From: Microvirga tunisiensis
Lineage (GTDB): Bacteria; Pseudomonadota; Alphaproteobacteria; Rhizobiales; Beijerinckiaceae
Direction: 5' to 3'
NCBI RefSeq assembly: GCF_009296175.1
Contig: NZ_VOSK01000010.1
Location: 1-64,000, forward strand
DNA: 64,000 bases
Within the stretch, counting starts at the first letter, position 1, and each line of letters begins with the position of its first letter. The notes under the pieces are model-generated. The model searched no databases. It was given only the letters and a program-made list of their open reading frames with translations, and had not been told where the DNA came from. Position numbers and translations under genes: made by a program. This document shows, one piece after another, positions 2,981 to 21,374 of this stretch.

Positions 2981-4260
2981 GTCTGCCGTGTGGCCGAGGA
3001 GAGGCTTCCCGTCAATGCGGCATCGGGAATCTCCAAGGGGATCCCGACGTGGGCCAGCACCCCTCGCGCGGCGGCAATGCCTGTGGCGAAGGTTGCCTGG
3101 AGCAGGTAGCCCCCGGTGGGCGCCTCCCAGTCCAGCATCTCGCCGGCCACGAAGACACCTGGCATTCGGCGCAGCATCAGGTGCTCGTCCACCTCGCTGA
3201 ACGGCACGCCGCCGGCGGTGGAGATCGCTCGGTCAAGGGACTTCGTGCCCGTCAGCGTCAGGGGCACCGCCTTGATCAGGCGGGCCAGTGCCCCGGGTTC
3301 CGACGGAAGGGCAGGGGAGGCTTCCCGCAGCAGGGCAATCCCGACTGGACTGAGGCCGGCGCTCTTTCGCAGGAAGGTGGAAGCGGACTGGGCCTTTCGC
3401 GGAGCGCTCAGGCGTTTCGCCAGGACTTCCTCGGAAAGGTCAGGCCGCAGATCCAGGTACAGCGTGGCGTTGCCCATCCGCTCAATGGCATCGCGAAGCC
3501 TGGCCGAGAGGGCATAGACCGCTCCGCCCTCGATCCCGTCCACTGTCACGATGGCCTCGCCCTTCACGGTCGTGCTCTCGAAGGTCAGGGCGATTCGCTT
3601 CAGGGGCTGGCCCTCGAAGCGGCTGCGCACGATGTCGGACCACGAGAGGGTGAAACCCATATTGGCGGGGCGCAGGGGCGAGACCGCGATACCCTGTCGA
3701 GAGAGCAGTTTCACCCAGGTCCCGTCGGAGCCGAGCCGGGGCCAGCTCGCGCCGCCGAGCGCCAGGATGGTGGCAGCAGGCTTGACCCGAACTGACTCGC
3801 CAGCGGCATCGGTGAAGATCAGACGGACGTCCTCGTCCCATCCTTGCCAGCGATGGCGCAGGGCGAAGCGGACGCCAAGGCTCTCCAGCCGCGACAGCCA
3901 GACGCGCAGGAGGGGAGAGGCCTTGAAGGCCGTGGGGAAGACGCGGCCGCTGGAGCCCACGAAGGTCTCCTGTCCCAGCCCCTCGCTCCAGGCACGCAGA
4001 TCCTCGGGGCGAAAGGCCTCGATCAGAGGCCGCAATCGCGGCTGGGCCTCGGCGTAACGGGTGACGAAACGCTCGAACTCTTCCGAATGGGTCAGGTTCA
4101 GACCACCCCGGCCCGCCATGAGGAGTTTTCGCCCGACGGACGGCATCCGGTCGTAGACGATGACCTTAAGGCCCGCATGTCCCAGAACCTCCGCGGCGAT
4201 CAGGCCGGCGGGGCCGCCGCCGACGATGGCGACTTCGGGTGGGGAGGAGCTTGCGGGCAT
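2977..4260 (-). CDS. HI0933/BaiN-type NAD(P)/FAD-dependent oxidoreductase
   Basis: A 427-residue flavoprotein of the HI0933-like family (the TIGR03862 branch fits). The N-terminus has a dinucleotide-binding fold, VAIVGGGPAGLIAAEVLGHAG, then the family-typical VGRKLLMAGRGGLNLTHSE. A second FAD-contacting segment lies at the C-terminus (PGVFVAGEMLDWEAPTGGY). Substrates of this family are poorly defined. The ATG at 4260 is supported by the early start of the Rossmann strand. It is the first gene of a two-gene unit with recQ, joined by a 4-nt overlap; no functional link to the helicase is known to me. Confidence 0.88.
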
Positions 4261-4938: not shown

Positions 4939-6717
4939 ATGACCCACCAACAAATGCTTGCCTTCGCCGTCATCGCCGGGATGATGGCGCTCTTCGTCTG
5001 GGGACGTTTCCGCTACGATCTTGTCGCTGTTCTGTCGCTGCTGGTCGCCGTGCTGATTGGCATCGTGCCCGCCGACAAGGCCTTCGAGGGCTTCAGCGAC
5101 GACATCGTCATCATCGTGGCGAGCGCGCTTCTGGTCAGCGCCGCCATGGCGAAGTCCGGTATCCTCGAGGCAGGATTGAACCGGGTCGGGCCTTATTTGC
5201 GCACCACGCAGATCCAGGTCGTTGTGCTGGTGACCGTGGTGACGGTGCTCTCCGCTTTCGTGAAGAACATCGGCGCGCTGGCGATGATGATTCCCGTGGC
5301 GTTTCAGATCGCCCGGCGGACGAACACGCCGCCTTCGAGCTTTCTCATGCCGATGGCCTTCGGCTCCCTTCTCGGCGGCATCGTCACCCTGGTCGGCACC
5401 TCGCCGAACATCATCGTGTCTCGGGTCAGGCAAGAGCTTCTGGGCGAGCCGTTCGGCATGTTCGACTTCACGCCGGTCGGGCTCGGTATAGCGCTGGCGG
5501 GCGTCGCCTTCCTGGCCTTCGGCTACCGTCTGCTGCCGCAGGGCCGCAAGGGCTCCGCCTCCCTCTATGATGCTCTCGATATCAAGGATTATGTCACTGA
5601 GGCGCGGGTGACCCCCGAATCTGAGGTGATCGGGCAAACGGTGGCGGATTTGCACAAACTCGCCAATGGCGAGGTGAAGGTCGCGGCCATCATCCGCAAC
5701 GAGACCCGCAGCTCCAGTCCCCTGCCGGATGCAAGGATCCGCGAGAACGACGTTCTCATGCTGGAGGGTGAATCGGATGCGCTCGAGAGCGCCGTTGTTC
5801 GGGCCGGGCTGAAACTGAGCCGAGAGCATCGCCAACCGGAGATGGAGGAAGCAACCGACGAGATCGGTGTCATCGAGGCGATCGTCGGGCCGAATTCCCG
5901 CTTGACCGGCCTCTCGGCGGAGCAGATCGGTCTCTATGAGCGCTTCGGGGTCAACCTCATTGCGGTCAGTCGCAGCGGCGTGCGCTTCAAGGAACGGCTG
6001 CGCACCATCACTCTGCGCTCCGGGGATGTCATTGTGCTGCAAGGCAACCTCAAGCGGCTGCCCGACACCTTGCGCGATCTCGGCTGTCTGCCCTTGGCCG
6101 AACGGGAGATCCGGCTCGGCAGCGCGCGGCGCAGCTTCATGCCGGCCGCGATCCTCGTGGGTGCCATGGTGCTCGTCGCCTTCAACATCCTGCCGGTGGC
6201 GATCGCCTTCTTCGGGGCGGGCGTCCTCCTCGTCCTGTTCGGCTCCCTCACCTTGCGCGAGGCCTACGAGACGATCGAGTGGCCGATCATCGTCATGCTC
6301 GGAGCCCTGATTCCGGTCAGCGAATCGATCCGGACGACCGGCGGCACGGACCTGATCGCGGGATGGCTCTCAATGGCCGCCAACATGTTGCCGCCCACCG
6401 GTGCTCTCGTGCTCATCATGGTGGCCGCCATGGCGGTGACGCCGTTCCTCAACAATGCGGCCACCGTGCTGGTGATGGCCCCCATCGCGGCGAGTTTCGC
6501 CACCCAACTCGGCTTCAAGCCCGACGCGTTTCTCATGGCGGTGGCCATCGGGGCAGCCTGCGATTTCCTCACCCCCATCGGCCATCAGTGCAACACCCTG
6601 GTGATGGGGCCGGGCGGGTACCGATTCGGCGATTACTGGCGGCTCGGGCTGCCGCTTTCGATCCTGGTGGTGGTGATCGGCGTACCGCTCATCATGCTGG
6701 TCTGGCCGCTGCAGTAA
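4939..6717 (+). CDS. SLC13-family (DASS) permease with two RCK_C domains
   Basis: A 592-residue inner-membrane transporter. N-terminal hydrophobic segments (about 1-200) and C-terminal segments (about 395-590) belong to the CitMHS/SLC13 divalent-anion symporter fold, with paired motifs TLVGTSPNIIVSR and TPIGHQCNTLVMG holding the substrate/Na+ loops. Between them (about 205-375) are two TrkA-C/RCK_C regulatory domains, each with the pattern GxTVADLH...NGEVKVAAIIR or LTGLSAEQIGLYERFGVNLIAVSR. This layout is common in sulfate- or dicarboxylate-type DASS carriers; the substrate is not resolved. Start ATG at 4939; an internal ATG at 4954 is an alternative. No clear Shine-Dalgarno is visible. Confidence 0.9.
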   Translation: MTHQQMLAFAVIAGMMALFVWGRFRYDLVAVLSLLVAVLIGIVPADKAFEGFSDDIVIIVASALLVSAAMAKSGILEAGLNRVGPYLRTTQIQVVVLVTVVTVLSAFVKNIGALAMMIPVAFQIARRTNTPPSSFLMPMAFGSLLGGIVTLVGTSPNIIVSRVRQELLGEPFGMFDFTPVGLGIALAGVAFLAFGYRLLPQGRKGSASLYDALDIKDYVTEARVTPESEVIGQTVADLHKLANGEVKVAAIIRNETRSSSPLPDARIRENDVLMLEGESDALESAVVRAGLKLSREHRQPEMEEATDEIGVIEAIVGPNSRLTGLSAEQIGLYERFGVNLIAVSRSGVRFKERLRTITLRSGDVIVLQGNLKRLPDTLRDLGCLPLAEREIRLGSARRSFMPAAILVGAMVLVAFNILPVAIAFFGAGVLLVLFGSLTLREAYETIEWPIIVMLGALIPVSESIRTTGGTDLIAGWLSMAANMLPPTGALVLIMVAAMAVTPFLNNAATVLVMAPIAASFATQLGFKPDAFLMAVAIGAACDFLTPIGHQCNTLVMGPGGYRFGDYWRLGLPLSILVVVIGVPLIMLVWPLQ

Positions 6718-11286: not shown

Positions 11287-11433
11287 CGGTTAGCGCCGCA
11301 ATATTCCTGTCAAGCTTGTATTGTCACTGTAAAACAATGTTCTAGCTTCTCCTTAAGGCGGAAAGGACCGCTCCGGCCCGACCGCTACGCCATGCATGCC
11401 AGCTTCCGCTGGCAGGTTGAGGGGGGAAAGCCC

Positions 11434-13116
11434 ATGTGGAGCCAAGTCTATAATCCGTTCAACAATGCGACGTTGTCGACCATAGCGGCCGCCATTCCGG
11501 TCGTTCTGCTCTTGGTGATGATCGCCTCCGGCAAGGTGAAGGCACACATTGCCGCCGTCATCGCTCTTCTCGCGGCGATCGCCGTCTCCGTCTTCCTGTT
11601 CACCATGCCCACCGGGCTTGCCACACGCGCCGCCTTGTTCGGCGTCGCAACCGGCATGTTCCCGATCGGCTGGATCATTCTGAACGTTATTTTCCTCTAT
11701 CGGCTGACGGTGGAGAGGGGGTATTTCGCCACGCTTCAGCAGTCGGTCGGCAACATTACGACCGACCGACGCCTTCAATTGCTGCTCGTCGCCTTTGCCT
11801 TTGGGGCTTTCTTTGAAGGCGCAGGCGGCTTCGGCACGCCGGTTGCCGTGACGGGCGCCATCCTCATCGGTCTTGGCTTCTCGCCGCTGGCGGCCTCCGG
11901 TCTCTCGCTGATCGCCAACACCGCTCCGGTCGCCTTCGGCGCCCTCGGCGCGCCGATCCAGGGCCTTGCTTCCGTCACCGGCTTCGATCCTTACGTTCTC
12001 GGTGCCATGGTCGGCCGTCAGCTGCCCTTCTTCTCGCTCATCGTGCCGTTCTGGCTTATCGCGGTGTTTGCGGGGTTGCGCGGCATGATGCAGATCTGGC
12101 CTGCGATCCTGGTGTGCGGCGTCTCGTTCGCGATCCCACAGTTCCTGATCTCGAATTACATCAATCCCTGGATCGTCGACATCGGTGCATCTCTGATCTG
12201 CATGGCGTGCCTCGTCGGCTTCATGCGAATCTGGCACCCGAAGGAGATCTGGACCTCGCCGGCCCTGCGCACGCGCGACGATTCGGTGGGAACCCTGACC
12301 CGGCCTGCTCCCCTGAGCGCCGCCACACCCACCATGACCCCTCAGGTGGACCGGGGAGAGGTTTTTCGTGCCTGGGTACCGTGGATCATCCTCTCCGTCA
12401 TCGTCGCGATCTGGGGCACGGGCTGGTTCAAGGCGCTCGTCAACCCAATCTTTACCTGGAGCTATCCCGTCCCAGGCCTGCACAACATGGTGCAGAAGGT
12501 TGCGCCCATCGTGGCCAATCCGACGGCGGAGCCTGCCGTCTTCGCCTTCACCTACCTGTCCTATACGGGCACGGGCGTGCTGATCGCAGCCATCATCGCC
12601 GGTTTCGTCATGGGTTTCTCCCCCTTGCGGCTCATCACCGCCTGGTTCGAGACGATCTGGGTGCTGCGCTATTCTCTCATCACCATCGCGGCGATGCTGG
12701 CCATCGGGACGCTCACCCGCTTTTCAGGTGTCGACGCAACGCTCGGATTGGCTTTCGCCGGGACGGGAATCCTATATCCGTTCTTCGGCACCTTGCTCGG
12801 CTGGCTCGGCGTGGCGCTGACGGGCTCTGACACCGCGTCCAACGTCCTGTTCGGTGGCTTGCAGAAGATCACGTCCAACCAGCTTGGGCTGTCACCCATC
12901 CTCATGGCGGCGGCGAATTCGTCCGGCGGCGTCATGGGTAAGATGATCGACGCGCAATCCATCGTCGTGGCGTCGACGGCGACGAACTGGTTCGGGCATG
13001 AGGGAAGCATCCTGCGCTTCGTGTTCTGGCACTCCATCGTGCTCGCCTGCCTCGTCGGCGGGCTCGTGATGCTGCAGGCCTATGTCCATCCGTTCACGGA
13101 AATGGTCCTGCACTGA
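11434..13116 (+). CDS. lctP: L-lactate permease (LctP family)
   Basis: A 560-residue membrane protein of the lactate/glycolate permease family (LctP/GlcA), which imports lactate or glycolate with protons. Features are about 12 or more hydrophobic spans, the family motif FFEGAGGFGTPVAVTGAIL, then SLIANTAPVAFGALGAPI, and near the end GSDTASNVLFGGLQ and NSSGGVMGKMIDAQSI, all diagnostic. The ATG at 11434 has a strong GAGGGGGG ribosome-binding site and replaces an in-frame ATG at 11392. The gene stands alone and ends at a bidirectional hairpin terminator shared with the facing amidohydrolase gene. The symbol is by family; glycolate versus lactate preference is not decidable. Confidence 0.9.
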   Translation: MWSQVYNPFNNATLSTIAAAIPVVLLLVMIASGKVKAHIAAVIALLAAIAVSVFLFTMPTGLATRAALFGVATGMFPIGWIILNVIFLYRLTVERGYFATLQQSVGNITTDRRLQLLLVAFAFGAFFEGAGGFGTPVAVTGAILIGLGFSPLAASGLSLIANTAPVAFGALGAPIQGLASVTGFDPYVLGAMVGRQLPFFSLIVPFWLIAVFAGLRGMMQIWPAILVCGVSFAIPQFLISNYINPWIVDIGASLICMACLVGFMRIWHPKEIWTSPALRTRDDSVGTLTRPAPLSAATPTMTPQVDRGEVFRAWVPWIILSVIVAIWGTGWFKALVNPIFTWSYPVPGLHNMVQKVAPIVANPTAEPAVFAFTYLSYTGTGVLIAAIIAGFVMGFSPLRLITAWFETIWVLRYSLITIAAMLAIGTLTRFSGVDATLGLAFAGTGILYPFFGTLLGWLGVALTGSDTASNVLFGGLQKITSNQLGLSPILMAAANSSGGVMGKMIDAQSIVVASTATNWFGHEGSILRFVFWHSIVLACLVGGLVMLQAYVHPFTEMVLH

Positions 13117-15879: not shown

Positions 15880-16770
15880 CTAGCCCTTTTGTCCCCGGAT
15901 GAAGTTGATGATGCCGGAAAAGTCGTCGCCCTCGTGTCCGGCATTGTTGAACAGGGCATAGAGCTGGGCCGCCTCGGCACCCAACGGCGTCGAAGCTCCC
16001 GAGCCGAGGGCCGCCTCCTGCGCCAGCTTCAGGTCCTTGAGCATCAGCGCCGCCGCGAAGCCCGGCTTGTAGCCGTTATTGGCGGGCGAGGCCGGCACAG
16101 GGCCGGGCACCGGGCAATAGGTGGTGAGCGACCAGCACTGGCCCGAGGACGTGGAGGCGACATCGAACAGCGCCTGATGCGACAGTCCGAGCTTTTCGCC
16201 GAGTACGAAGGCTTCCGCCACGCCGATCATCGAGATTCCGAGGATCATGTTGTTGCAGATCTTCGCCGCCTGACCCGCGCCCGCCTCGCCGCAATGCACG
16301 ACCTTCTTGCCCATCTTGGAGAGGATCGGCTCGGCCCGGTCGAACGCTGGCTTGGCGCCACCCGCCATGAAGGTGAGCGTGGCACCCCTCGCGCCGCCGA
16401 CGCCCCCGGACACCGGCGCATCGAGGCTCAGCAGGTTGCGGCCCTGCTCGCGGGTCATGACATGCGCCTTGAGCGCGCTCTCCACATCGATCGTGGAGCA
16501 GTCGATGAGCAGCGTGCCTTCCTTTACCGAGGGCAGGATGTCGGTCCAGACCGAGAGCACATGCTTGCCGGCCGGCAACATGGTGACGACCACCTCAGCG
16601 TCTCGCACGGCGTCCGCCGTGGATCCCGCAATGCTCGCTCCGTCGTTCCGCGCCTGATCGCAGGAGGCGGGTGAGAGATCGAAGCCGGTGACGCTGTGCC
16701 CGGCCCTGATGAGATTGGCGGCCATCGGCCCGCCCATGTTGCCGAGGCCGATGAAGGCGATGCTGGTCAT
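15880..16770 (-). CDS. mmsB: 3-hydroxyisobutyrate dehydrogenase
   Basis: A 296-residue beta-hydroxyacid dehydrogenase. It oxidises 3-hydroxyisobutyrate to methylmalonate semialdehyde with NAD+ in valine breakdown. Visible features are the N-terminal Rossmann motif IAFIGLGNMGGPMAANL, the substrate motif LDAPVSGGVGGARGATLTF, and the catalytic Lys segment GAGQAAKICNNMILG. The ATG at 16770 has a strong GGGAGGAG ribosome-binding site and overlaps the preceding gene by 4 nt (ATGA), so the long frame to 17151 is not real. It is the last gene of a four-gene unit with an acyl-CoA dehydrogenase, and mmsA lies just upstream, confirming the pathway. Confidence 0.95.
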   Translation of the reverse strand: MTSIAFIGLGNMGGPMAANLIRAGHSVTGFDLSPASCDQARNDGASIAGSTADAVRDAEVVVTMLPAGKHVLSVWTDILPSVKEGTLLIDCSTIDVESALKAHVMTREQGRNLLSLDAPVSGGVGGARGATLTFMAGGAKPAFDRAEPILSKMGKKVVHCGEAGAGQAAKICNNMILGISMIGVAEAFVLGEKLGLSHQALFDVASTSSGQCWSLTTYCPVPGPVPASPANNGYKPGFAAALMLKDLKLAQEAALGSGASTPLGAEAAQLYALFNNAGHEGDDFSGIINFIRGQKG

Positions 16771-17201
16771 GAGACTCCTCCCGGATTGTAATGTGACGTT
16801 CGGCTGAGCAGCCAGAATGCGCCCGCTGCCATGACGATACCGCTGCCGGCATGCAGCAAGAGATGTTTCGGGCTCTCGAAGCCCCGCTCCAGAAAGACGA
16901 GGATGACGTCGCCGGCAGGAATGAGAATTGTGAGCCCGAGCACTGTGCCTACGATGCGACGGGTCGACAGACGCGACAGGGCAGCGAGATATGCCCCGAA
17001 GGCGAGGTCGCGCAGGCCGATGGCCGGGACATAGGACAGGCCCAGCCCCTCGGGCGCCGCGATTCCGAAAAGCGCTGCCCCGGCGCGCGGCGCGAAGATG
17101 AACAGCAGCCCCAAGAGTACGAACACGCCCGACAAGGCGAACACGAACCAAGTGCTCGGCTCGTGCAAAGGCAATCCCGATGGTTCGCTCCTGGCCGTCA
17201 T
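16767..17201 (-). CDS. DUF4267-like small membrane protein
   Basis: A 144-residue protein with four hydrophobic spans: FVFALSGVFVLLGLLFIFAP, LSYVPAIGLRDLAFGAYLAAL, RIVGTVLGLTILIPAGDVILV, and LHAGSGIVMAAGAFWLL. The G-L-R-D-L-A/x-F-G motif in span 2 fits the DUF4267 family, whose function is unknown. It overlaps both neighbours by 4 nt (ATGA at each junction), so it is co-translated with the valine genes. The start at 17201 is fixed by that overlap. Whether it takes part in valine use or is only carried in the operon cannot be told. Confidence 0.75.
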   Translation of the reverse strand: MTARSEPSGLPLHEPSTWFVFALSGVFVLLGLLFIFAPRAGAALFGIAAPEGLGLSYVPAIGLRDLAFGAYLAALSRLSTRRIVGTVLGLTILIPAGDVILVFLERGFESPKHLLLHAGSGIVMAAGAFWLLSRTSHYNPGGVS

Positions 17202-17569
17202 GCGCGTCGCGCCACCCACAGGGCTCCGCAAAACGCGAAGCCGTAGAACCACAGCATCAGCGATCCGAAGACCTTGTCGAGGGCAGGATCGAGCTGCGGG
17301 AAAAAGACTGCGAAATGCGAACCCACGGCGGCCATGATCAGCATGCCCGGAACGGCCGCCAGACCCATGACATGGATGGCAGCTTTTCGCGGCACGCGCA
17401 GGATGCGGTCGATCGACAGACCAAATCCTAAGCCGAGCACCGCTCCTGCCGTGAAGTTGAGCTGGAACGGTCGGCGTCCCTCCAGGAAGAACCACGGCCC
17501 TGCCCACGAGAACAGCGCGAAGATCGCCGCGGCGATGCCGAAGCCGAGGCCGAGCGATCTCACCATCAT
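17198..17569 (-). CDS. Small four-span membrane protein, unknown function
   Basis: A 123-residue hydrophobic protein starting at tandem ATGs (17569 and 17566) that overlap the stop of the acyl-CoA dehydrogenase gene. Spans: SLGLGFGIAAAIFALFSWAG, FTAGAVLGLGFGLSIDRIL, VMGLAAVPGMLIMAAVGSHF, and MLWFYGFAFCGALWVA. I do not recognise the family. It overlaps the next gene by 4 nt. With the following DUF4267-like protein it forms a pair of tiny membrane proteins between two valine catabolic enzymes. Confidence 0.72.
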   Translation of the reverse strand: MMVRSLGLGFGIAAAIFALFSWAGPWFFLEGRRPFQLNFTAGAVLGLGFGLSIDRILRVPRKAAIHVMGLAAVPGMLIMAAVGSHFAVFFPQLDPALDKVFGSLMLWFYGFAFCGALWVARRA

Positions 17570-18717
17570 CGGTTGCCGCGTCCCACCAGGTCGCGCGCCA
17601 CGATCAGGCGCATGATCTCGTTGGTGCCCTCCAGGATCTGGTGCACGCGCAGGTCCCGCACGATCTTCTCGACGCCGTAATCGGCGAGATAGCCGTAGCC
17701 GCCATGGAGCTGCAGGGCATCGTTCGCCACCTGGAAGCCCACATCGGTCGCCATGCGCTTGGCCATGGCGCAGAGCTTCGTGGCATCGAGCGCCTTCGCA
17801 TCGAGGGCGGAGGCCGCACGCCACAGGAAGGTGCGCGCGCATTCGAGCTCGGTGGCCATGTCGGCGAGCTTGAACTGCAGCGCCTGGAAATCCGCGATGC
17901 GCTTGCCGAAGGCCTTGCGGTCGCCCGTATAGGCGAGTGCCTTGTCCAGCGCCGCCTGAGCGCCGCCCAGCGAGCAGGCGCCGATATTGATACGCCCGCC
18001 GTCGAGGCCCGACATGGCGATCTTGAAGCCCATGCCCTCATCCGAGAGCCGATTGGCCACGGGCACGCGCACGTCCTCGAAGATCACGGCGGCGGTGGGC
18101 TGCGCATTCCAGCCCATCTTCTTCTCCTGTGCGCCGAAGGAGACGCCCGGCATGTCCTTCTCGATCACGAGGGTCGAGATGCCGGACGGGCCGTCCTCGC
18201 CCGTGCGCACCATGGTCACGTAGATGTCGGATGTGCCGGCGCCCGAGATGAACTGCTTGACGCCGTTGACGATGTAATGATCGCCATCGCGCACGGCCTT
18301 CGTCTTGAGCGCGGCCGCATCCGAGCCCGAGCCCGGTTCGGTCAGGCAATAGCTCGCGATCAGTTCCATGGTGACCAAGCGCGGGATGTAGCGGCTCCGC
18401 TGCTCCTCGGAGCCGTAGCGGTCGATCATCCACGTCGCCATGTTGTGAATGGAGAGATACGCCGAGATGGCCGGGCAGCCGGTGGCGAGCGCCTCGAAGA
18501 TCAGCGCCGCGTCGAGCCGCGTCATGCCCGATCCGCCCACATCGTCGCGGGTGTAGATCGCCGCCATGCCGAGGCTTGCGGCCTCGCGCATCACATCCAC
18601 GGGAAAATGCTTCTTCTCGTCCCATTCGAGGGCGTGAGGGGCGAGGTTGTCCGCCGCGAAGGCGAGCGCCATGTCGCGGACGGCGATTTGATCGTCGGTG
18701 AGTGAGAACTGGGTCAT
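17566..18717 (-). CDS. Isobutyryl-CoA dehydrogenase (acyl-CoA dehydrogenase family)
   Basis: A 383-residue FAD acyl-CoA dehydrogenase, usual length. Signatures: CLTEPGSGSDAAALKTKA (FAD/acyl-CoA loop), FGKRIADFQALQFKLADMA, and the catalytic-base region QILEGTNEIMRLIVAR, with Glu in EGTNE. Neighbours mmsB and mmsA make isobutyryl-CoA, the valine-derived substrate, the best guess; it would yield methacrylyl-CoA and pass electrons to ETF. It is first in a unit coupled by 4-nt overlaps with three downstream genes. The enoyl-CoA hydratase and 3-hydroxyisobutyryl-CoA hydrolase that complete the route are not in the window. Confidence 0.9.
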   Translation of the reverse strand: MTQFSLTDDQIAVRDMALAFAADNLAPHALEWDEKKHFPVDVMREAASLGMAAIYTRDDVGGSGMTRLDAALIFEALATGCPAISAYLSIHNMATWMIDRYGSEEQRSRYIPRLVTMELIASYCLTEPGSGSDAAALKTKAVRDGDHYIVNGVKQFISGAGTSDIYVTMVRTGEDGPSGISTLVIEKDMPGVSFGAQEKKMGWNAQPTAAVIFEDVRVPVANRLSDEGMGFKIAMSGLDGGRINIGACSLGGAQAALDKALAYTGDRKAFGKRIADFQALQFKLADMATELECARTFLWRAASALDAKALDATKLCAMAKRMATDVGFQVANDALQLHGGYGYLADYGVEKIVRDLRVHQILEGTNEIMRLIVARDLVGRGNR

Positions 18718-18821: not shown

Positions 18822-18854
18822 AAAACAAATGGCCGGGATCTATGTCCCGGCCAT
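18822..18854 (-). terminator. Intrinsic terminator after mmsA
   Basis: A 10-bp perfect stem (18829-18838 with 18845-18854, loop TCTATG) followed on the minus strand by TTGTTTTT. It begins 12 nt past the mmsA stop, which separates mmsA from the downstream acyl-CoA dehydrogenase unit. Confidence 0.85.
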
Positions 18855-18865
18855 CATGATCGTGC

Positions 18866-20362
18866 CTACTTCATCGTCGGAATGGAAAATTCCGCGCCTT
18901 CCTTGATGCCGGAGGGCCAGCGGGACGTGACGGTTTTGGTCTTGGTGTAGAAGCGCACCGCGTCCGGGCCATGCTGGTTGAGGTCGCCGAAGCCCGAGGC
19001 CTTCCAGCCGCCGAAGGTGTAATAGGCCAGCGGCACCGGGATCGGCACGTTGATGCCGACCATGCCCACATTCACCTTGGAGGCGAAGTCGCGGGCAGCG
19101 TCGCCGTCGCGGGTGTAGATCGCGACGCCGTTGCCGTATTCGTGGTCGGAGGGGAGGCGCAGCGCCTCGTCGTAGTTCTTGGCCCGCACAACCGAAAGCA
19201 CGGGCCCGAAGATCTCTTCCTTGTAGATGCGCATATCGGGGCGCACATCGTCGAAGAGGCAGCCGCCCATGTAGAAGCCGTCCTCGTAGCCCTGCATCTT
19301 GAAGTCGCGGCCGTCGACCACGAGCTTGGCGCCTTCCTGGACGCCGAGATCGACGTAGGAGCGCACCTTCTCCATGTGCGCCCTGGTGATCATCGGGCCA
19401 AAATCAGCGGAGGGATCGGTGGAAGGGCCGACCTTCAGGCTCTCGACGCGCGGGATCAGCTTGTCCATGAGCGCGTCGGCCGTGGCCTTTCCGACTGGCA
19501 CCGCCACCGAGACCGCCATGCAGCGCTCGCCGGCCGAGCCGTAGCCGGCGCCGATCAGCGCATCCGCCGCCTGGTCGAGATCGGCGTCGGGCATGATAAT
19601 CATGTGGTTCTTCGCGCCGCCGAAGCACTGGGCGCGCTTTCCATGCGCGGTGGCGCGGGAATAGACGTACTGGGCGATCGGCGAGGAGCCGACGAAGCCC
19701 ACCGCCTTGATGTCCGGATCGTCGAGGATCGCGTCCACCGCTTCCTTGTCCCCGTTGACCACGTTGAGGATGCCGGCTGGAAGGCCCGCCTCGATCATCA
19801 GCTCGGCGAGGCGCATCGGCACGCCCGGATCGCGCTCGGAGGGCTTGAGGATGAAGGCATTGCCGCAGGCAATGGCGGGCGAGAGCTTCCACAGCGGGAT
19901 CATGGCCGGGAAGTTGAACGGCGTGATCCCGGCGACGACGCCGAGCGGCTGACGGATCGAGTACATGTCGATGCCGGGGCCGGCGCCTTCGGTGAACTCG
20001 CCCTTCAGGAGGTGCGGAATCCCGGTGCAGAACTCCGCTACCTCGACGCCGCGCTGGATGTCGCCCTTCGCGTCGGGAATGGTCTTGCCATGTTCGCGGG
20101 CGAGCATTTCGGCGAGCGTGTCGGTTTCCTTCGCGATGAGCTCGAGGAACTTCATCATCACGCGGGCGCGGCGCTGCGGATTGGTGGCGGCCCAGGCCGG
20201 CTGCGCGGCCTTGGCGTTCTCCACCGCCTGGTGCAGCTCGTCCTTGGAGGCGAGCGCGACCCGGCCGAGGACCTCGCCGGTCATGGGCTGGAAGAATTCG
20301 GTGGTGCGACCCGATTTGCCGGGAACCTGCTTGCCGCCGATGAAATGTCCGACCTCGCGCAT
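18866..20362 (-). CDS. mmsA: CoA-acylating methylmalonate-semialdehyde dehydrogenase
   Basis: A 498-residue aldehyde dehydrogenase of the MmsA type, which turns methylmalonate semialdehyde (valine) or malonate semialdehyde into propionyl- or acetyl-CoA with NAD+ and CoA. Features: N-terminal HFIGGKQVPGKSGRT, the NAD-binding GITPFNFPAMIPLW, VGSSPIAQYVYSRATAHGKR, the catalytic Cys in GAGYGSAGERCMAVS, and the C-terminal family tag TVTSRWP. The start at 20362 has a very strong GAGGAGGAGA ribosome-binding site; a start six codons upstream is less likely. A divergent LysR gene shares its promoter region. Confidence 0.95.
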   Translation of the reverse strand: MREVGHFIGGKQVPGKSGRTTEFFQPMTGEVLGRVALASKDELHQAVENAKAAQPAWAATNPQRRARVMMKFLELIAKETDTLAEMLAREHGKTIPDAKGDIQRGVEVAEFCTGIPHLLKGEFTEGAGPGIDMYSIRQPLGVVAGITPFNFPAMIPLWKLSPAIACGNAFILKPSERDPGVPMRLAELMIEAGLPAGILNVVNGDKEAVDAILDDPDIKAVGFVGSSPIAQYVYSRATAHGKRAQCFGGAKNHMIIMPDADLDQAADALIGAGYGSAGERCMAVSVAVPVGKATADALMDKLIPRVESLKVGPSTDPSADFGPMITRAHMEKVRSYVDLGVQEGAKLVVDGRDFKMQGYEDGFYMGGCLFDDVRPDMRIYKEEIFGPVLSVVRAKNYDEALRLPSDHEYGNGVAIYTRDGDAARDFASKVNVGMVGINVPIPVPLAYYTFGGWKASGFGDLNQHGPDAVRFYTKTKTVTSRWPSGIKEGAEFSIPTMK

Positions 20363-20483
20363 GGCGTCTCTCCTCCTCAAGGGTGTTTTTCGTGGTCTTC
20401 TTCTATCATTGTTGAAATCGCACGACTATGGGTGAAACCAAAGCACCGTTGTGCGAAAACACCAATACGGCAAGGGCACGGGC
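20363..20483. promoter_or_regulatory. Shared mmsA / LysR divergent promoter region
   Basis: A 121-bp gap between divergent starts, the usual place for a LysR operator. The AT-richer core around 20400-20450 (TATCATTGTTGAAATCG, then ACTATGGGTGAAACC) is the likely binding zone. I cannot fix a T-N11-A box with certainty. Confidence 0.45.
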
Positions 20484-21374
20484 ATGAGCGCATTCGATTG
20501 GGACGATCTCCGCTTCTTCCTGGCCGTCGCCCGGGCCGGGCGCCTCACCGCCGCCGCTCGCCAACTCGAGGCGGACCACACCACCGTGTCCCGCCGCATC
20601 TCGGCCCTGGAGGCGGCGCTCAAGGCCAAGCTGTTCGAGCGCAGCCCTCAGGGCTACACCCTGACCGAACAGGGGGAACGACTGCTCAAGCACGCGGAGA
20701 CCATGGAGACCCAGGCTCTTGCGGTGGCGAGCGAACTCGGGGGCGCCGATCTCGCGCTCTCGGGGACCGTGCGTATCGGCGCGCCTGACGGGATCGGCAC
20801 CTATTTCCTCGCGCCGGAACTCGGCGCCCTCGCCGAGCGGCATCCGGGCCTCACCCTGCAGCTCGTGGCGTTGCCGCGGACCTTTTCGCTCTCCAAGCGA
20901 GAGGCCGACATCGCCGTGACCCTGGAACAGCCGACGGAAGGGCGCCTCGTCTCACGCAAGCTCACCGATTATCGCCTCAGGCTCTATGCCTCGCAGGATT
21001 ATCTCATGCGGCACGGGCCAGTGACGGAACTGTCGGATCTGACGGGCAAGACCCTCGTCACCTATGTGGCCGACCTGCTCTACAGCCCCGTGCTCGATTA
21101 CTTCTCGGCGCTCGAAAAATACACTGCCCGCCGGTTCGAGTGCGCCAGCGTGGTGGCGCAGGCGGAGGCCGTGCGGGCAGGCGTCGGCATCGGTGTCCTG
21201 CACGATTACGCGGTGCGCCAGTTCCCGGAGCTCCAGGTCGTGCTGCCCGATGTGTCCTACCTGCGCACCTACTGGCTCGTCACCCATGCCGATGTGCGGT
21301 CCTTACGCCGGGTGGAGGAGGTCTATTCTTTCATTTTGAGCCGGGTGCGAGCCAATCGCGGGTTATTTGTCTGA
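20484..21374 (+). CDS. LysR-family transcriptional regulator
   Basis: A 296-residue LysR-type regulator. The winged helix-turn-helix covers about residues 5-62 ([20 protein letters not shown], then [21 protein letters not shown]), followed by the effector-binding domain from about 90 ([21 protein letters not shown]). The ATG at 20484 has an AAGGGC site. It is divergent from mmsA, so it probably controls mmsA in response to a valine-pathway intermediate; that link is inferred from position only. Confidence 0.92.

Follow-up and report, generated by a model that had tools for sequence, protein, structure and literature searches.

Valine breakdown is textbook soluble enzymology, and the enzymes considered here, an acyl-CoA dehydrogenase (ACAD) and the 3-hydroxyisobutyrate dehydrogenase mmsB, are cytoplasmic. 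The leak-prone free acid of the pathway is 3-hydroxyisobutyrate, which is released by HIBCH and oxidised by mmsB, and which is the sole intermediate between isobutyryl-CoA and the semialdehyde that is not bound to CoA.

Among the closest known systems is the mms valine/3-hydroxyisobutyrate operon. The Microvirga tunisiensis locus is like it in having mmsA and mmsB, both scoring above curated cut-offs, with an ACAD gene between them, but differs by two inserted membrane genes, here named P1 and P2, and by the missing HIBCH. A tblastn search with the HIBCH of genome G449 (E <= 1e-5) found no match in the window, meaning the whole stretch of 64,000 nucleotides that was analysed, or in loci L053 to L083. 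A second arrangement for comparison is the ACAD-HIBCH-DUF6163-mmsB-MarR operon of other Hyphomicrobiales, which likewise has a small membrane gene before mmsB (19 of 59 loci, and G449). Three of these 20 DUF6163 loci (G048, G503, and G449) also carry a DUF5367 gene behind ACAD. Compared with this operon, the Microvirga site is without HIBCH and DUF6163 and has DUF4267 in some species.

P1 resembles the DUF5367 family (Pfam ID PF17329) by a score above the curated cut-off, but covers only positions 45 to 93 of the 98 profile positions; its relative in Salinarimonas, described below, covers 13 to 97. P2 is alike to DUF4267 (Pfam ID PF14087) over positions 3 to 110 of 110. Both are families of unknown function, DUF5367 being listed as such by Pfam. 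A search of open papers found none naming DUF5367, DUF4267, or DUF6163, and LdtR was not found together with 3-hydroxyisobutyrate. Judged by title and the start of the abstract, nothing on point appeared among the matches listed for the valine operon, 3-hydroxyisobutyrate transport, and gene-neighbourhood literature.

Layout of the locus and coupling of its genes

On the minus strand, the gene order is mmsA, ACAD, P1, P2, and mmsB. The features are as follows.

20451..21374, plus strand: LysR-type regulator, divergent from the operon (PF03466, PF00126)
18866..20380, minus strand: mmsA, CoA-acylating methylmalonate-semialdehyde dehydrogenase, ORF from the first TTG (gene caller start at 20362)
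18828..18855, minus strand: terminator-like hairpin in the mmsA/ACAD interval, from a pattern scan alone (11 pairs, T-rich tail)
17566..18717, minus strand: ACAD, acyl-CoA dehydrogenase, 383 aa (PF00441, PF02771, PF02770)
17566..17569, minus strand: 4-nt ATGA overlap of ACAD and P1, read from the sequence
17198..17569, minus strand: P1, 123-aa four-helix membrane protein, DUF5367 (PF17329, 32.7 bits, cut-off 25)
17198..17201, minus strand: 4-nt ATGA overlap of P1 and P2, read from the sequence
16767..17201, minus strand: P2, 144-aa four-helix membrane protein, DUF4267 (PF14087, 63.1 bits, cut-off 27.8)
16767..16770, minus strand: 4-nt ATGA overlap of P2 and mmsB, read from the sequence
15880..16770, minus strand: mmsB, 3-hydroxyisobutyrate dehydrogenase, 296 aa (TIGR01692, 436.9 bits, cut-off 291.6)

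The initial annotation described two tiny membrane proteins inside a valine catabolic operon, and the gene identities agree with this. Besides mmsB, mmsA also passes its NCBI curated cut-off (TIGR01722, 661.7 versus 448.5 bits) and matches PF00171. The score of P2 bears out its description as DUF4267-like. For ACAD, no NCBIfam equivalog was found above cut-off; judged by its place, the gene probably encodes the isobutyryl-CoA step. No NCBIfam model matched P1 or P2. The hairpin may separate the transcript of ACAD-P1-P2-mmsB from that of mmsA; the scan gave 6 sites in the region against 4.7 expected from shuffles. From its position, the divergent LysR-type regulator is a possible regulator of the operon. 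A transporter of the lactate/glycolate permease family (TIGR00795, above cut-off) lies near the operon on the opposite strand, at window positions 11392 to 13116. Statements of absence for the M. tunisiensis genome are weak, since the assembly is listed with 8.78% contamination and has 1022 contigs.

The serial overlap of ACAD, P1, P2, and mmsB by ATGA was confirmed at all three junctions, and P1 has a second ATG right behind the first, so that a 1-nt overlap with ACAD is equally possible. We surveyed the junctions in 30 named Microvirga loci, choosing start codons near the query's start, which leans the counts towards 4-nt overlaps. The ACAD-P1 overlap of 4 nt was found in 15 of the 30 (one with GTG), the remaining 15 having gaps of 12 to 408 nt. 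Where P2 is present, P1 and P2 overlap by 4 nt in all 19 loci (one with GTG) and P2 and mmsB in 16, and in the 11 loci without P2 the gap between P1 and mmsB is always 39 to 69 nt. In 20 stretches of 20 kb from one sampled Microvirga genome, 4-nt overlaps join 28 of 216 same-strand pairs and once form a run of four; the window has 9 such overlaps among 34 pairs, the operon's three counted in. This background comes from a crude codon-usage gene caller, which puts the start of P2 at 17144. Taken alone, the tight overlaps are unremarkable against chance; it is the gene neighbourhood whose conservation goes beyond it. Tight coupling is conserved between P1 and P2 but not between ACAD and P1. The proposal that the ATGA junctions imply selection for equal expression was therefore rejected, 4-nt overlaps being ordinary in the genus and the ACAD-P1 overlap unconserved.

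Distribution within Microvirga and beyond

P1 is present in 26 of 37 same-genus genomes, M. tunisiensis included, and a search with its sequence gave no match in 24 other genomes of the order. In every one of the 26 its place is between ACAD and mmsB, as it is in the 30 named Microvirga loci, which are largely the same genomes. P2 is present in 15 of the 37 genomes and absent from 22; in 14 it stands directly before mmsB, with 13 of these between P1 and mmsB. Genome G031 has P2 alone between ACAD and mmsB, without P1, and in G007 P2 is on another contig, on a 3.4-kb locus with none of the operon genes.

mmsB is present in each of the 11 genomes that lack P1. ACAD is directly upstream of it in 10, and the contig of the eleventh (locus L049) ends within mmsB. 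The gap between ACAD and mmsB holds an unrelated 88-aa membrane ORF with no Pfam match in G016 (locus L044), and in G036 (locus L043, 1406 to 1495) a 30-residue C-terminal remnant of P2 precedes mmsB. On a DNA tree of ACAD and mmsB with 43 rows, parsimony counted at least 8 presence changes for P1 and at least 10 for P2, with L049 scored as lacking both. Given these absences and repeated changes, P1 and P2 are both accessory genes in the genus. The description of the pair as locked inside the operon thus goes too far: 11 of the 37 genomes have no P1 and 22 no P2, and half of the surveyed loci are without the ACAD-P1 overlap. The tie to the valine operon itself holds in the same-genus genomes that carry the genes, for P1 in all of them and for P2 in all except G007, and DUF5367 is also seen in valine operons of other families, but many relatives do without P1. 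At locus L062 (6369 to 6800), P1 is 84% identical to the copy in the window and P2 only 51%, which suggests that P2 may have been exchanged between Microvirga lineages.

Outside the genus, a Salinarimonas metagenome contig (NCBI family Salinarimonadaceae) carries a P1 relative, 50% identical, directly before mmsB; no ACAD or mmsA match was found on this 9.5-kb locus at E <= 1e-5. G449 has the gene order ACAD, DUF5367, HIBCH, DUF6163, mmsB, and MarR, its DUF5367 protein matching the P1 profile at E 2.3e-11 (hhalign probability 97.4). The same order is found in G048 and G503, and the three genomes represent three other families of the order. Relics of DUF5367 remain between ACAD and HIBCH in G478 and G514, which are of the same genus as G048 with its intact gene (locus L185 near 3287 to 3412, and L188 near 4966 to 5109).

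The P1 profile matched 2 of 297 genomes in the order (M. tunisiensis and G449) and 1 of 385 in the class, M. tunisiensis alone, as did the P2 profile class-wide (1 of 385). The P1 query is narrow: G048 was sampled yet went unmatched, though it carries DUF5367, and its copy and that of G503 surfaced by reading mmsB and DUF6163 loci, so counts obtained with the P1 sequence or profile are lower bounds. The DUF5367 family itself scored above its cut-off in just 3 of 289 class genomes, which makes chance insertion an unlikely source of its association with valine genes in five lineages. It also occurs outside valine operons, beside other small genes, in G069 and G203. Among the controls, DUF5367 matched Bacillus subtilis, Caulobacter, and Haloferax, two of the three above cut-off, with Caulobacter vibrioides being matched by DUF5367, DUF4267, and HIBADH. 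Loci L089 and L090 score below the DUF5367 cut-off and have other gene contexts. A match in Desulfonema (locus L084, 35% over 60 residues) was discarded as due to chance, its ORF being unlike a membrane protein of this kind. A plasmid search gave no match for P1, P2, or the DUF5367 of G449.

The order survey covered 59 further neighbourhoods of HIBADH matches (from a total of 61, spread over 59 of 106 genomes, with M. tunisiensis and G449 set apart). The nearest sought gene upstream of mmsB was HIBCH in 20 loci, DUF6163 in 19, ACAD in 4, and mmsA in 2; the other 14 had no sought gene upstream on the mmsB strand, a few being cut by contig ends. All 19 DUF6163 loci have HIBCH before DUF6163. Intact DUF5367, between ACAD and HIBCH, was seen in only two of the 59 (G048 and G503). 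Conservation beside mmsB, which had been put forward as a check, is found among the same-genus carriers of P1 (26 of 26) and P2 (14 of 15). In two genomes (G522 and G487; loci L146 and L147), the interval between ACAD and mmsB is taken up by a 122-aa ORF for which no membrane span is predicted and which may resemble 23S rRNA intervening-sequence proteins.

In the mmsB protein tree, Microvirga and Salinarimonas fall in one part and G449, G048, and G503 in another, and the presence of DUF5367 needs at least 4 changes on this quick tree with many weak forks. We read DUF5367 as an apparently old operon member that was lost many times, the alternative being repeated gain.

DUF6163, the third small membrane family, occupies the position preceding mmsB in many families. 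Of 111 genomes of the order, 52 have a match at E <= 0.001, 46 of them above cut-off, and the M. tunisiensis genome has none. Within 1.5-kb flanks of its best 30 loci (L115 to L144), a MarR gene is present in 24, HIBCH in 20, and mmsB in 12, making the MarR gene its strongest partner. The MarR gene is near DUF6163 even at loci without any sought valine gene nearby, and DUF6163 would lend weak support to a role in valine breakdown. Neither the window nor the 31 loci around P1 gave a relative of this MarR gene. A placement of P2 or P1 in DUF6163 was rejected, with hhalign probabilities of 10.6 and 0.2, and profile comparison detected no mutual homology among DUF5367, DUF4267, and DUF6163.

Constraint, topology, and predicted structures

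The dN/dS ratios are 0.14 to 0.31 for P1 (8 pairs with relatives) and 0.16 to 0.51 for P2 (the 6 of these relatives having it), compared with 0.04 to 0.18 for ACAD and 0.09 to 0.18 for mmsB (8 pairs each). By these ratios, P1 and P2 look like real genes and are under purifying selection.

AlphaFold2 predicts four long helices for P1 with high confidence (pLDDT 92.5), in line with its initial description as a four-span protein, and four long helices, the third broken, for P2 with moderate confidence (pLDDT 79.6). P1 carries 7 lysines and arginines on the N-terminal side and 3 on the far side, which suggests that both ends are cytoplasmic. Across 32 sequences, invariant residues number 8 of 15 in one far-side loop and 15 of 20 in the other, compared with 0 of 20 in the N-side loops; the predicted topology would thus place two near-invariant loops, around residues 22 to 36 and 84 to 103, in the periplasm. 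G449, G048, and G503 do not share residues R32, R33, H85, D98, and K99, which are invariant in Microvirga, so a shared mechanism, if there is one, would not depend on them. All 32 aligned P1 relatives match the DUF5367 profile at E <= 0.1, and all other Pfam matches fall below cut-off, such as a Na+/H+ antiporter subunit (16 of 32, best E 0.0029).

Neither model had a Foldseek match at E <= 0.001, the best value for P2 being 0.19, and a sequence search of the PDB gave none at E <= 1. The fold comparison for P1 returned photosystem I chains L and a designed bundle (Z 9.0), nothing being diagnostic. With VIA-align, the P2 model aligns over 115 positions to NACHO/TMEM35A (Z 7.5, rmsd 4.0), further to VKOR entries (Z 6.0 to 6.7), and also to tetraspanins (Z 8.6 to 9.2) and a designed bundle (Z 8.9). 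As for a DoxX-like/TMEM35A or a VKOR fold, the likeness of the P2 model is within the range of common four-helix bundles.

Possible roles of P1 and P2

The company of DUF5367 with valine genes across families argues for a valine link beyond local accident, and we consider it highly probable that DUF5367 truly belongs to the valine operon. Our preferred reading, held tentatively and somewhat short of an even chance, is that P1 would be an accessory protein of the inner membrane that has long belonged to the Hyphomicrobiales valine operon, and P2 a later addition in Microvirga, neither being essential to the core. Its observed basis is the operon position, kept across rearranged operons, the purifying selection, and the absence from many relatives with ACAD and mmsB. 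P1 would then be made together with the valine-degradation enzymes and would most likely have its target on the outer side of the inner membrane, as suggested by the conserved loops in the predicted periplasmic part. Its likeliest job would be the passage or recapture of a free pathway acid, 3-hydroxyisobutyrate or isobutyrate, in the direction of import, recapture, or export. Such acid handling would fit with the P1 gene staying with mmsB where ACAD is gone, as in Salinarimonas.

That DUF5367 is a solute carrier or part of a channel is judged less likely than not. Improbable as a whole is the fuller proposal, in which DUF5367 would be a new type of inner-membrane carrier, very small and probably oligomeric, that moves 3-hydroxyisobutyrate or isobutyrate and is an old operon member with DUF6163 or DUF4267 as interchangeable helpers. 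A four-helix protein of 123 aa is small for a transporter, and the empty Foldseek result also speaks against transport. The preferred reading as a whole has further counterevidence, namely the 11 of 37 same-genus genomes without P1, 10 of which keep ACAD and mmsB adjacent, the at least 8 and 10 presence changes, the copies of DUF5367 outside valine operons, its rarity near mmsB in the order survey, the nearly empty P1 profile searches of class and order, and the five Microvirga-invariant residues that G449, G048, and G503 do not share.

Nearly as likely as the preferred reading is that P1 and P2 are passengers, the gap between ACAD and mmsB tolerating small membrane genes that are kept by descent and co-expression and have no valine job, for example as general envelope proteins. 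The variable content of the gap favours this, being empty, P1, P1 with P2, P2 alone, the 88-aa membrane ORF, or the P2 remnant, together with the ORF without predicted span in G522 and G487 and the lack of detectable homology among the three small membrane families. Passengers would not be expected to persist as P1 or DUF5367 does: in five lineages whose operons are rearranged, it still accompanies ACAD or mmsB.

A response to stress or solvents is a slim prospect: the proteins would adjust the membrane upon build-up of branched acids or aldehydes, and regulation would link them to the operon, much as DUF6163 seems linked to MarR. It would draw on DUF6163 being the small membrane gene before mmsB elsewhere, and on its preference for MarR over mmsB, but neither P1 nor P2 shows a detectable relationship to DUF6163, and the window and the 31 P1 loci gave no relative of that MarR gene. 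We give slightly less weight to membrane docking, by which P1 and P2 would keep soluble enzymes (ACAD with its ETF partner, and mmsB) near the membrane. The neighbouring genes with overlapping ends are consistent with docking, as is the position of P1 directly behind ACAD in Microvirga, with DUF5367 likewise placed in three other families. The conserved loops of P1, however, are predicted to be periplasmic and the cytoplasmic ones are variable, and the Salinarimonas locus is without ACAD. Towards quinone coupling, which the initial annotation had listed among possible membrane roles, no pointer was found for P1 or P2.

The observation is better founded than the sequence alone showed, as one gene has a link to valine genes across families. 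The conserved company of P1 hints at a possible membrane step in valine breakdown, a pathway that many relatives run without P1. If a membrane protein family accompanies the valine genes in several bacterial families, the known pathway would appear to lack a membrane step, and DUF5367 and DUF4267 gain a concrete hypothesis for their function. If the carrier reading were true, cells could exchange a free intermediate with their neighbours or with a plant host.
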